Below are positions 31,406 to 35,071 of a stretch of 35,071 nucleotides of DNA, in pieces. The position numbers and the translations under genes were made by a program. Source of the DNA: Caulobacter sp. HMWF025 (GTDB lineage: Bacteria > Pseudomonadota > Alphaproteobacteria > Caulobacterales > Caulobacteraceae). Location: the NCBI RefSeq assembly GCF_003060965.1, contig NZ_QAII01000031.1:18227-53297 (forward strand), read 5' to 3'. Every line of letters begins with the position of its first letter. The stretch's first letter is position 1. The notes under the pieces were generated by a model. That model was not told where the DNA came from. It searched no databases and worked only from the letters and a program-made list of their open reading frames with translations.

Positions 31406-33349
31406 TCAGAAGGCCAGGCGCACACCCGCATAGCCGGCCCGACCCGGCGTGGCGTAGCTGAACACTTCCTCGTAGTCCTCGTTGAGTAGGTTCTCGACCC
31501 GACCAAACACCGAAATCTTGGGCGTCAGCCGGTAGTCGATGGCGGCATTGGCCAGCGCATAGGCCTTCAGCATCACCCGGACCGGCCGGTAGCTCGGATC
31601 GGTATAGGCCACGTCGGTCTGCTTGCCGTTGTAGCGAAGGCTGAGGGTGCCGGAGAGCCGCGCGTCGCTCGACAGGGCCGTGACACTCAGGCTGGCAATG
31701 GACTTGGGACGACGAACCTCGACCACGCCGTTCTCGCGCGCATGCAGCCAGGTGTAGGCCGCATCGATCCGAAGATGGTCAGTCGGGCGGGCGTTGGCGA
31801 ACAGTTCGACGCCATGCTGCCTTGAGTCCGTTGTCCGGTTGCCCGGCGTGGCGACATAGGTCGGGGCGGGATAGGTGGTGTAGATCTCATTCTTCAGCAC
31901 GCTGTCGAACCAGGTCGCGCCGAGGGTTGCCTTTTCGGCGGCGAAGGTCTGCTCGACCCCAAGCTCCCAGCCCTTCGACTGCTCGGGCTTGAGGTTCGGA
32001 TTGCCGATGTATTTGCCGTCCGAATAGCCGAAAAGTTCGTAATAGCCCGGGTTCTTGACGCCGGTGCCATAGGCCGCACGCAGCCGGGTCCCGCCGGTCA
32101 GGGCATAGCTGCCCTGGGCCCGCCAGGTGGAGACGTCGTCAAAGCGGTTGTTCTGGTCGCGCCGCACCGAAAGCCCGAGCGAAAGGGTCTGGTTCACGAC
32201 CGCCTCGTACTCGCCGACGATCCCGACATTGTCGGTGTGACGGCGGCCCTGGAAGACGTAGCTGGCCGGAGTGGTGTTCTGGAAGGTCTCGCGCTCGACG
32301 TCCACAGCGCCTGTTACACGCTGACTGACGGCTTCAGTCCCGAAGCGATAGGTGCTGACCACGGAGCCCTTGTAGCGCTTGCCCTTGTCACCGTATTCAA
32401 TACCGCGCGCCGTGTAGGCCTTGCGCGTGGTGTCAGCGACCTGGGCGGACGCGGCACTGACCCAGCGGCCGTCCAGCGCCGTCAGCTCGGCCTCGACCCG
32501 CCCATAGAGCGCCGTGTTGTCGTAGTGCGCGCCGGGATCATCGACGATGTAGCCGAACAGCGGGCTGGCCGGATTGCTCTCGCTCCTGTTGCTGTCGGCG
32601 TCGGTGAAGCTGTAGCGCCCGACCCCGGTCAGCCGGAAGGTCTCGCTGGGCGACCAGATCAGCTTGGCCGAGGCCCCGAAGCTGTCAGAGCCGATGTTGC
32701 GCTTGCCGTTCCGCGCCGTCTTCGTGCCGTCCGTCTGGTAGCTGGAGGCCGAAAGGGCGTAGTCGAGGTCGCCCGATACGCCCGCCGTCCGGGCGGCCGC
32801 ACTGACGGTGCCGAACGATCCGCCTTCCAGACGCAGGCGCGTTCCGGCCGCCTCAGCGCCCGAAAGGGTGATGTAGTGGATCACTCCGCCGATGGCGTCG
32901 GAGCCGTAGAGCGAGGACTGTTGACCGCGCAGGACCTCGACCCGGGCCGCCTCGTCGGCGATCAGGGTCCCGAAGTCATATTCGCCCTGATAGGGGTCCG
33001 AGGCCTCGATCCCGTCGATCAGGACCAGGACGTGATTGCCTTCGGTCCCGCGAACACGGACCTGGGTCTGGCTGCCGATGGCCCCCAGACGATTGACCGC
33101 AAGGCCGGGCACGTCCCGCAGGATGTCGGACACGATGCGGGTCTGGCGAAGGGTCATGGCCTCGGCGTCGAGCACCGTCACCGACGCGCCCAGGGTCTTG
33201 ATCTCGACCGGCTCGCCGGAGCGCGACGCGGTGACGATCAGGGTATCGACCGAAGACGCTTCGGCGGCAACGGGATCGGCAAGGGCGGGCCCGGCGGCCA
33301 GCAGGGCCAGGCAGGAGGCGGAATAGAGGAACAGTTTCACAGGCAGCAC
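31406..33349 (-). CDS. btuB: BtuB-like TonB-dependent vitamin B12 receptor
   Basis: 647 residues. Signal peptide 1-24 (LALLAAGPALA); TonB box DTLIVTA at 35-41; plug domain about 45-160 (TLRQTRIVSDILRDVPGLAVNRLGAIGSQTQVRVRGTEGNHVLVLIDGIEASDP, then VEVLRGQQSSLYGSDAIGGVI); then a 22-strand barrel ending in VRLAF with terminal Phe. The plug sequence is BtuB-like. The cobalamin riboswitch in its leader supports corrinoid as the substrate. No btuFCD or cob gene is in the window, so inner-membrane uptake must be encoded elsewhere. Confidence 0.93.
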   Translation of the reverse strand: MLPVKLFLYSASCLALLAAGPALADPVAAEASSVDTLIVTASRSGEPVEIKTLGASVTVLDAEAMTLRQTRIVSDILRDVPGLAVNRLGAIGSQTQVRVRGTEGNHVLVLIDGIEASDPYQGEYDFGTLIADEAARVEVLRGQQSSLYGSDAIGGVIHYITLSGAEAAGTRLRLEGGSFGTVSAAARTAGVSGDLDYALSASSYQTDGTKTARNGKRNIGSDSFGASAKLIWSPSETFRLTGVGRYSFTDADSNRSESNPASPLFGYIVDDPGAHYDNTALYGRVEAELTALDGRWVSAASAQVADTTRKAYTARGIEYGDKGKRYKGSVVSTYRFGTEAVSQRVTGAVDVERETFQNTTPASYVFQGRRHTDNVGIVGEYEAVVNQTLSLGLSVRRDQNNRFDDVSTWRAQGSYALTGGTRLRAAYGTGVKNPGYYELFGYSDGKYIGNPNLKPEQSKGWELGVEQTFAAEKATLGATWFDSVLKNEIYTTYPAPTYVATPGNRTTDSRQHGVELFANARPTDHLRIDAAYTWLHARENGVVEVRRPKSIASLSVTALSSDARLSGTLSLRYNGKQTDVAYTDPSYRPVRVMLKAYALANAAIDYRLTPKISVFGRVENLLNEDYEEVFSYATPGRAGYAGVRLAF

Positions 33350-33465: not shown

Positions 33466-33525
33466 TCGCTCAGACGGAGTACCGTGCCTTGACCATCCCC
33501 TGGATCAGGCAAGAGCGACCGGTGC

Positions 33526-33717
33526 GCCGGCAGGTCTCCTGGCTCGCGGGTCGACACGTGATGCACGGCCTTCCCGGGCCTTTCGGCCCAGTGGCTGTGC
33601 CCCGCTGAGGGGGCCGTGTGCATCGCGCTATCCGCTTACAGTTGCAGGGACAGCCGCGGAGTCGGGTGCAGAAGCACCCTCACCGCATTCCCGATTAAGC
33701 CTCTCTCGAGGCACCGG
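33526..33717 (-). ncRNA. Cobalamin (AdoCbl) riboswitch
   Basis: On the minus strand the element runs from GCCGGTGCC through the conserved core GGCTGTCCCTGCAACTGTAA (B12-box-proximal junction), then GCCACTG and GGGAAGGC, and closes with AGCCAGGAGACCTGCCGGC (33526-33544). These are the landmark segments of the cobalamin riboswitch, in the correct order. It precedes btuB by 176 nt; bound cobalamin should lower receptor expression. Confidence 0.93.
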
Positions 33718-33781
33718 CGCGATCGTGAGGGCGGAGCAGAGCCCCGTCCTCAGGGCACAGCCAATATGACAAAATGGCGGA

Positions 33782-33880: not shown

Positions 33881-34249
33881 TCAGCCCAGGGCCAGGGCGC
33901 AGCTTTCGCCGATTGTCGGACGCGAGATCACCACGCGCGACAGACCCGGGAAGGCCGGGGTCAGGCGGTCGGCAAAATAGAGGCAGAGGCGCTCCAGCGT
34001 CGGGCTTTCAAGCCCGGGGCGGTCATTCAGAAGACCGTGATCCAGCTCAGACGCGACGGCCTTCAGGGCGGTGTCGAGGCCTTCCAGGTCCGCCACCCAG
34101 CCGGCGTCCTGCATCGCCCCCTTTACGCTGGCCTCGACCTTGAACGAGTGGCCGTGCAGCTTGCGGTAGCGATGGTCGGCGGGACCTTGCTCGATGTAAT
34201 GGGCCGCGTCGAACGTCGCGGCCTTCGTGATTTCGAAGACGGGCATCAT
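33881..34249 (-). CDS. queD: QueD-family 6-carboxytetrahydropterin synthase, atypical active site
   Basis: 122 residues, normal QueD length. Zinc ligands are His17 (FDAAHY), His32 and His34 (LHGHSF); the catalytic-dyad Asp70-His71 is retained (ELDHGLLND). The family motif C-x3-HGH, whose Cys is the general base, reads Y-R-K-L-H-G-H here, so Tyr28 replaces Cys. The C-terminal Glu that anchors the pterin (KET in E. coli) aligns with Arg110, with Glu115 nearby. QueD converts dihydroneopterin triphosphate to carboxytetrahydropterin for queuosine. Adjacent queE and queC argue for that pathway, but the chemistry must differ or another QueD must exist. Starts at 34249 or 34246. Confidence 0.85.
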   Translation of the reverse strand: MMPVFEITKAATFDAAHYIEQGPADHRYRKLHGHSFKVEASVKGAMQDAGWVADLEGLDTALKAVASELDHGLLNDRPGLESPTLERLCLYFADRLTPAFPGLSRVVISRPTIGESCALALG

Positions 34250-34321: not shown

Positions 34322-34954
34322 TCAGGGCAGGCCGAGATATTTGTGTGTTTGGACGCTTAAACGCCATTGAGGGTGTGAAAGGCAATAGGCGACCGCCAAT
34401 TGCGTGTTGGCGTCGCGGTCGGGGCCGTCCATCGGCTGCAGGTAGAAGCGTTCGAAATCGAGCCCGGCGAAGCGGTCCGGAAGGGCCTTGTCCTGCGGAT
34501 AAACCAGCTTCAGCTCCTGGCCGCGCGTCTGCACGACCGGCGCATCGGCCTTGGGGCTGACGCAGATCCAGTCGATGCCGTCAGGGGCCAGAACCGTGCC
34601 GTTGGTCTCGACCGCAATCATGAAGCCCCGCGCGTGCAGGGCGGCAATGGCGGCCGGATCCAGCTGCAGCAGGGGCTCGCCGCCGGTGCAGACCACCAGC
34701 CGGTCACCCGGCCCGCCGGTCCAGGCCGCCTCGACGGCCGCAGCCAGATCCTCGGCCGTGGCAAACTTGCCGCCGCCCTCCCCGTCGGTGCCGACGAAAT
34801 CGGTATCGCAAAAGGTGCAGACGGCCTCGGCCCGGTCCTGCTCGCGCCCCGACCACAGATTGCACCCGGCGAAACGGCAGAACACCGCCGCCTTGCCGGC
34901 CTGGCCGCCCTCGCCCTGCAGGGTGAGGAAGATTTCCTTGACGGAGTAGGTCAC
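34322..34954 (-). CDS. queE: QueE, 7-carboxy-7-deazaguanine synthase
   Basis: A 210-residue radical SAM enzyme. The N-terminal [24 protein letters not shown] and the cluster Cys pattern C-x14-C-x2-C (GCNLW...[10 protein letters not shown]) give the expanded-loop form of QueE known from Burkholderia rather than the usual CX3CX2[10 protein letters not shown] is the SAM-binding glycine motif; VETNGT and VSPKADAP follow. It converts carboxytetrahydropterin to CDG. It starts at GTG 34954, overlapping the queC stop by four bases (GTGA), so the two are translationally coupled. Confidence 0.95.
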
Positions 34955-35071
34955 GCGGCCATGACCTTACGACCGGCGGCGTCCCATTCCTCGTAGCCGC
35001 GCTGGCGCAGCTCGCAGGCCGGACATTCGCCGCAGCCATGGCCCCAGGGATGCAGTTCCCCGCGCTCGCCC
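34951..35071 (-). CDS. queC: QueC, 7-cyano-7-deazaguanine synthase (3' part only)
   Basis: Only the last 39 codons are in the window; the gene continues past the right edge. The fragment [29 protein letters not shown] contains the C-x2-C-x2-C zinc motif at the C-terminus of QueC, followed by a short tail ending VMAA. QueC turns CDG into preQ0 using two ATP and ammonia. Gene order queC-queE-queD on one strand gives three consecutive steps' worth of the preQ0 pathway; queF/tgt are not seen. Confidence 0.88.

Follow-up and report, generated by a model that had tools for sequence, protein, structure and literature searches.

A queD-like gene with an altered active site

The window (the whole stretch of DNA analysed, 35,071 nucleotides) contains a queD-like gene whose protein has neither the catalytic cysteine nor the anchoring glutamate of E. 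coli QueD. This raises the question of whether such a protein can be a working QueD and, if so, by what means. The gene at 33881–34249 is a conserved, clade-wide variant of QueD, in which the pathway is ordinary and the active site is unusual. The relevant features are:

33881–34249, minus strand: queD-like gene of the PTPS family, R110 type (Arg at residue 110); open reading frame of 122 amino acids, PF01242
34166–34168, minus strand: codon 28, TAC (Tyr), on catalytic Cys27 of E. coli QueD (sequence and alignments)
33920–33922, minus strand: codon 110, CGT (Arg), on the presumed pterin-anchoring Glu110 of E. coli QueD (sequence and alignments)
33905–33907, minus strand: codon 115, GAA (Glu), predicted first residue of the strand opposite Arg110 in the hairpin (sequence and model)
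34148–34156, minus strand: codons 32–34, HGH, predicted zinc ligands with His17 (34199–34201) (alignment)
34037–34042, minus strand: codons 70–71, Asp-His dyad (sequence and alignments)
34322–34954, minus strand: queE (TIGR04508, 368 bits, cut-off 240)
34951–35071, minus strand: 3' end of queC, cut by the end of the window (sequence; in L213 the gene carries an internal masked run)

The reading frame starts with ATG and its protein contains ...ADHRYRKLHGHSFK...SRPTIGESCALALG. It matches PF01242 with 88.4 bits, against a curated Pfam cut-off of 22.4. In the alignment to E. coli K-12 QueD (L212), Y28 falls on C27 and R110 on E110, H17, H32 and H34 fall on the zinc histidines H16, H31 and H33, and D70 and H71 fall on the dyad. 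The preliminary description of this gene, which had proposed Tyr for the catalytic Cys and Arg for the anchor Glu with the zinc His residues and the dyad retained, is therefore correct on these points. The three histidines are invariant in 37 alignment rows. Near the hairpin the alignment contains a one-residue insertion after position 110, and counting back from C117 would place P111 on E110. The register with R110 on E110 is favoured because of the register of strand 103–110 and because of an insertion-free homologue, L193, which reads ..INRPRIGGCIF.. against ..VKETCTAGCIY.. of E. coli QueD.

The protein reads YRKLHGH in place of the CxxxHGH signature of PTPS-I, with Arg instead of Glu at E. 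coli position 110. It also lacks the Cys ahead of HGH that marks PTPS-II (CxxxxxHGH), and its RKLHGH differs from ExxHGH of PTPS-III. The three zinc histidines and the Asp-His dyad that mark the PTPS superfamily are all there, with zinc binding predicted. TIGR03367, the NCBIfam equivalog model for QueD, is narrowly missed (86.4 bits, cut-off 89.25); this model has 92 positions, and its match to the protein stops at residue 97, short of residue 110. One of five other R110 types passes it (L154, 96.6 bits) and four fail.

Variation at the two sites among relatives

Genome contigs were scanned for relatives, and the closest loci are the best 80 of the 441 found; most of their titles name Caulobacter, Phenylobacterium or Caulobacteraceae. 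Residue 28 (site 27 of E. coli) is Tyr in all 80, encoded by TAT in 50 and TAC in 30, and Arg is found at residue 110 in 79, the remaining locus having been missed by the read-out pattern. The median pN/pS over the 40 pairs that align to the window gene without gaps (gapless pairs only) is 0.226, and the gene is under purifying selection.

Family, order and class samples combined with the closest loci gave 166 distinct QueD-like proteins, from 174 sequences of at least 95 bits. The 230 PTPS reading frames also included 2 copies of the window and 54 frames below this score, among them longer PHGH(N/D)E, KAIHGH, CxxxHGY and HGH-less types. Site 27 is Cys in 8 of the 166 and another residue in 158 (Tyr 134, Ser 8, Asn 8, Phe 5, Arg 2, Ala 1). 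Arg110 is present in 157 of the 158 non-Cys proteins and in none of the 8 Cys types, which have Glu (7) or Asp (1). With a phylum sample added, a redundancy cut at 78% identity reduced 204 sequences to 91, with 6 repeat loci, the domains of three triple-PTPS frames and stretches under 95 bits left out. Arg110 then occurs in 69 of 70 non-Cys types vs 0 of 21 Cys types; the sampling favours relatives of the window, and these counts therefore show the coupling of the sites and not how common each form is. Tyr occupies site 27 in 46 of the 69 non-redundant R110 types. R110 types outside the class belong to f139 (L272–L274), with S27/R110 and queE in the locus.

The single exception, L201, is A27/D110, non-Cys yet not R110, and adjoins queE and queC. 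Its genome, G384, has two PTPS and no Cys type, L201 beside queE/queC and L222 (Y27/R110) elsewhere.

R110 and Cys types part at several columns, among them C27, E110 (replaced by Arg), S85 (Leu or Met in 67 of 69), R17 (replaced by an aromatic residue, His or Thr) and K26 (replaced by Pro or other residues). Further marks of the R110 type are one residue inserted after 110 and Glu, Gln or Asp at site 115, in 64 of the 69 (E 53, Q 6, D 5) and thus not in all. Across the compared sequences Arg110 is the constant change, while residue 27 drifts. The preliminary description had put the weight on Tyr and proposed checking whether this is a clade-wide form. The Tyr change is real and runs through the closest loci, but the constant change is Arg110 rather than Tyr.

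A tree was built with the columns of both traits left out, and with its 113 columns has many open forks. It places 67 of the 69 R110 types on one side of a short branch (SH-aLRT 87). The other two, L193 and L222, sit among the Cys types on long branches, so a second origin of the R110 type is possible. As far as this tree goes, the R110 type is essentially one clade, and residue 27 needs at least 9 changes on the tree.

A phage origin of the gene was considered and rejected. Among 26 pattern matches in viral contigs there were 2 relatives, with 34–35% identity over parts of the query. Both carry Cys before HGH (CxxxHGH and CxxxxHGH), although a search with a single protein is weak evidence. 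The family alignment A1 contained no segment of sufficient conservation for scanning viral sequences.

Genomic context and association with QueE

The genes on the minus strand are ordered queC, queE, queD, the queC-queE context of PTPS-I, and the TGA stop of queC overlaps the GTG start of queE. No second PTPS was found in the window's genome (G000) at E <= 10, in an assembly that is 99.95% complete. The window's genome encodes FolE and TGT; the upstream step, FolE, is encoded in 30 of 30 genomes tested, and the downstream step, TGT, in 36 of 36. Directly downstream of queD is a cobalamin riboswitch (33512–33733, minus strand, 101.9 bits), ahead of a TonB-dependent receptor gene (31406–33349, minus strand) that is nearest to B12 receptor models, yet under their cut-offs.

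Both queE and queC lie within 4 kb and on the same strand in 126 of 157 R110-type loci, where short or cut loci count as misses. By residue at site 27 this holds for Tyr in 114 of 134, Asn in 6 of 8, Ser in 6 of 8, Phe in 0 of 5 and Arg in 0 of 2. Where these neighbours are missing, the genome usually still has the pathway: a TIGR04508 match is found in 35 of 36 selected genomes, in 34 of them over the cut-off; the match is weak in G190, which has a PHGH-type PTPS. No TIGR04508 QueE was found in G338, a genome 90% complete, although an R110 type is present. Among 149 Caulobacteraceae genomes, the identical 146 hold PTPS and QueE (QueE over the cut-off in 145), and both were absent in G059 (99% complete), G065 (63%) and G125 (71%). 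Neither was found in G181 and G236, of the same order. In G114 the QueE match (G114:C2:1489971-1490594, minus strand) scores 207.8 bits, under the cut-off, and has an in-frame TGA, from either a broken gene or an error.

In 15 genomes read by sequence, the sole PTPS has CxxxHGH and Glu-Thr-Pro at the anchor, and QueE is kept in all. Ten of these have the PHGH(N/D)E type, in frames of 178–314 residues (G133, G042, G049, G127, G097, G014, G085, G139, G108 and G134), and five have the KAIHGH type (G069, G033, G045, G062 and G020). They span five Caulobacteraceae genera, three of which (g1, g3 and g7) also have R110-type genomes. Two genomes, G134 (of the window's genus) and G108, have queC and queE together with no adjoining queD, and the Cys type is on another contig. 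G046 also has queC-queE without queD, and its only PTPS over the cut-off is of the CxxxHGY type.

Ten second copies were read from twelve two-PTPS genomes. Three are S27/R110, five are CxxxHGY and two have no HGH, and none is of the PHGH or KAIHGH type. Among the sequences read, R110 types and these two Cys/Glu types thus never occurred together, which would be expected of proteins with the same job. The CxxxHGY paralog (L166, L169, L170, L123, L124 and L293, the copy of G046 included) accompanies the R110 type in five genomes, where it could share the work of that type; the window's genome has no such paralog.

Other contexts of R110-type genes

Some R110 types occur in Dpd clusters, which are responsible for 7-deazaguanine DNA modification and need preQ0, the compound that this pathway makes. 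G012 has a second copy of S27/R110 type (L288) between queE and queC, with DpdA, two DpdB, DpdC, DpdF, a weak DpdG and DpdH as neighbours. In G126, of the window's genus, an S27/R110 copy (L289) occurs with queC, DpdA, two DpdB, DpdC, DpdF and a weak DpdG, and with no queE. A putative Dpd-type cluster with its own queC, queE and S27/R110 queD is found at G019:C2:22410-25315. All three clusters, including the putative one, occur beside a housekeeping set.

All five F27, both R27 and some Y27 and N27 R110 types are not beside queE/queC. A short-chain dehydrogenase gene adjoins R110-type genes without queE/queC in L147, L148, L150, L160, L192 and L196, and is found alone, with no FolB, in L019, L134, L158, L159 and L161. 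FolB dihydroneopterin aldolase is encoded in six of these loci (five proteins of each kind were checked against Pfam). We read the dehydrogenase as FolM-like, and the two neighbours suggest a link of these R110-type PTPS to pterin or folate metabolism. QueE is encoded elsewhere in all eleven of the genomes. Apart from PTPS, QueE, QueC and overlapping frames, the commonest neighbour cluster, the dehydrogenase, occurs at 17 of 68 R110 loci and the next at 10, as judged from the 45 and 16 largest clusters.

Three single reading frames of 364–372 residues contain triple tandem PTPS domains (L275:2620-3735, plus strand; L276:2938-4029, minus strand; L277:2944-4047, minus strand). Cys is found only in the middle domain (CGRMHGHGF...YET), and the outer two have Ser and Arg at this position. 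Such frames appear to be fusions that join a single classical domain to two altered ones. In each of five more genomes, G486, G463, G424, G430 and G434, two PTPS matches fall within one such frame.

Predicted structure and possible mechanism

The AlphaFold monomer model, built from 41 rows (the window protein and closest loci), has a mean pLDDT of 86.4 and shows the tunnel fold. Compared with E. coli QueD (4ntk) it gives Z 16.1 and rmsd 3.0 over 118 residues at 34% identity. Its strands 103–110 and 115–120 would bring Arg110 and Glu115 face to face at the neck of the C-terminal hairpin. The active site of the QueD fold lies between subunits.

On the sequence evidence it is rather likely that the product of the window gene works as a QueD, through a remodelled active site. 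Such an enzyme would convert 7,8-dihydroneopterin triphosphate, from FolE, to 6-carboxytetrahydropterin for QueE, using neither Cys nor the Glu anchor; we infer an unchanged net reaction from the fact that R110 and Cys types are followed by QueE of a single family. On this reading, which draws on the secondary structure of the monomer model, Arg110 and the facing Glu115 probably replace the Glu110 anchor, the acceptor having moved from 110 to 115. Glu115 (or Gln or Asp) would offer acceptor atoms to the pterin and Arg110 would hold it in place. Proton abstraction would be independent of residue 27, with the Asp70-His71 dyad, Glu115 or a zinc-bound water as the base, and Tyr28 would be at most an aid in the Tyr-bearing family. 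More tentatively, a lineage-wide QueD may have lost both Cys and the Glu anchor in one linked switch and come to work by a different mechanism, in which an Arg-Glu pair across the C-terminal hairpin holds the pterin (or the pterin takes another orientation, or the substrate differs) and the base lies elsewhere than at 27.

Several observations count against a working QueD. They include the R110 types that lie away from queE/queC, the R110 type of G338 with no TIGR04508 QueE, and the five genomes in which a CxxxHGY paralog accompanies the R110 type. The 4ntk and 3qna rows read 'hkag', with Ala at 27 in the crystallised E. coli QueD, presumably an inactive form. In the Plasmodium PTPS, where a Glu takes the place of Cys, a passage of PMC2229834 gives undetectable product for Glu38Leu. 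The E. coli and Plasmodium cases indicate that the residue at this position matters in classical enzymes.

Alternative explanations

If the Tyr28 phenolate replaced Cys27 as general base, as the preliminary description had suggested, the mechanism could be otherwise unchanged. Tyr in all of the best 80 loci, from both codons, and in two-thirds of the non-redundant R110 types (46/69) is in keeping with this. However, other R110 types carry Ser, Asn, Phe or Arg at site 27, which changes at least 9 times on the tree, and the Ser and Asn types stand in queC-queE operons, with Ser also in Dpd clusters and Phe and Arg elsewhere. The stability of Arg110 while residue 27 drifts is evidence against Tyr28 as general base, which is not the general answer and seems improbable. 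A somewhat better, though still unlikely, possibility is that the R110 type uses another substrate, differing in phosphorylation state or pterin, or binds the pterin in reverse, and reaches 6-carboxytetrahydropterin by another route. Arg replacing an acid that pairs with the pterin 2-amino group and N3 is drastic and could mean another substrate. The changes at C27, E110, S85, R17 and K26, the inserted residue and E/Q/D at 115 point the same way; loss of Arg17 and Lys26 with gain of Arg110 would fit a reversed or differently charged substrate, and some copies adjoin the short-chain dehydrogenase and FolB. Against this, FolE is encoded in all 30 genomes tested, R110 and Cys types share one family of QueE as the next enzyme, and among the 45 and 16 largest neighbour clusters none goes beyond 17 of 68 R110 loci.

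That the protein is inactive or only a binding or scaffold subunit, an unrelated protein making 6-carboxytetrahydropterin, is a good deal less probable. Both named active-site residues are gone, and SCO6650 (3d7j), reportedly a PTPS homologue without zinc, triad or PTPS activity, sets a precedent. However, the zinc ligands and dyad are kept, PTPS and QueE are present or absent together, and with another enzyme at this step there would be no need for the recurrent displacement by Cys/Glu types; the suggestion that the protein might only bind is thus doubtful. Almost no weight can be given to the idea that an ordinary QueD was misread in sequencing or has decayed locally, since the form is clade-wide, pN/pS is low and Tyr is found in all 80 closest loci, from other assemblies. 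A TGC-to-TAC error was rejected given the use of both TAT and TAC, a decayed paralog given a sole PTPS in the genome, purifying selection and the order queC-queE-queD, and a hidden second canonical QueD given no other PTPS at E <= 10. The preliminary description, which had judged a decayed paralog unlikely, named such an error as a possible refutation and proposed looking for a second QueD with Cys, is borne out in this respect.

Comparison with known PTPS proteins

The window protein resembles E. coli QueD (PTPS-I; 4ntk, 4ntm, 3qna) in whole-length fold, zinc histidines, Asp-His dyad, E86 and pathway position, and differs in that C27, E110, S85 and R17 are Tyr, Arg, Leu and Tyr, with one additional hairpin residue. 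Plasmodium PTPS (PTPS-III, ExxHGH) has likewise lost the Cys; a nearby Glu replaces it and the product is 6-hydroxymethyldihydropterin (PMC2229834), which shows that an enzyme of this kind can lose the cysteine while its product changes. Unlike this enzyme, the window protein has no acid next to HGH, and its context is queuosine rather than folate.

Two other members of the superfamily give lower Z scores against the model. SCO6650 of Streptomyces coelicolor (3d7j, Z 13.2) is a divergent PTPS homologue, reportedly without zinc and catalytic triad and without PTPS activity; the window protein, by contrast, keeps the zinc ligands and dyad. QueD2 of Acinetobacter baumannii (7v0f, Z 10.2), a second QueD form, is a longer paralog, whereas the window gene is the only PTPS copy found in its genome. 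Passages of PMC9508795 describe queD2 genes as second copies predicted under Zur.

QueD (PTPS-I) is defined by CxxxHGH in passages of PMC5041015 and PMC5445326, and the clusters predicted for queuosine in the latter showed this motif. No description of a QueD with Arg for the anchor Glu was found in the titles, abstract openings and passages searched. The form may appear in the paper defining PTPS-I to VI, for example as PTPS-V, whose function a passage of PMC5041015 calls unclear; that paper and the E. coli QueD structure paper are outside the scope of this search.

Implications

The interest of the R110 type lies in mechanism. Both the recognition of QueD-type enzymes and the account of how they work rest on two residues, Cys and Glu. 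A natural, conserved enzyme that lacks the two, yet stands in for the classical type and is replaced by it, would, if true, mean that another mechanism exists besides the assigned one. A new signature of Arg110 with Glu, Gln or Asp at 115 would then include queuosine and 7-deazaguanine DNA-modification genes missed by the CxxxHGH rule. Because a large group apparently makes the queuosine precursor with both residues replaced, the accepted reaction mechanism becomes directly testable.
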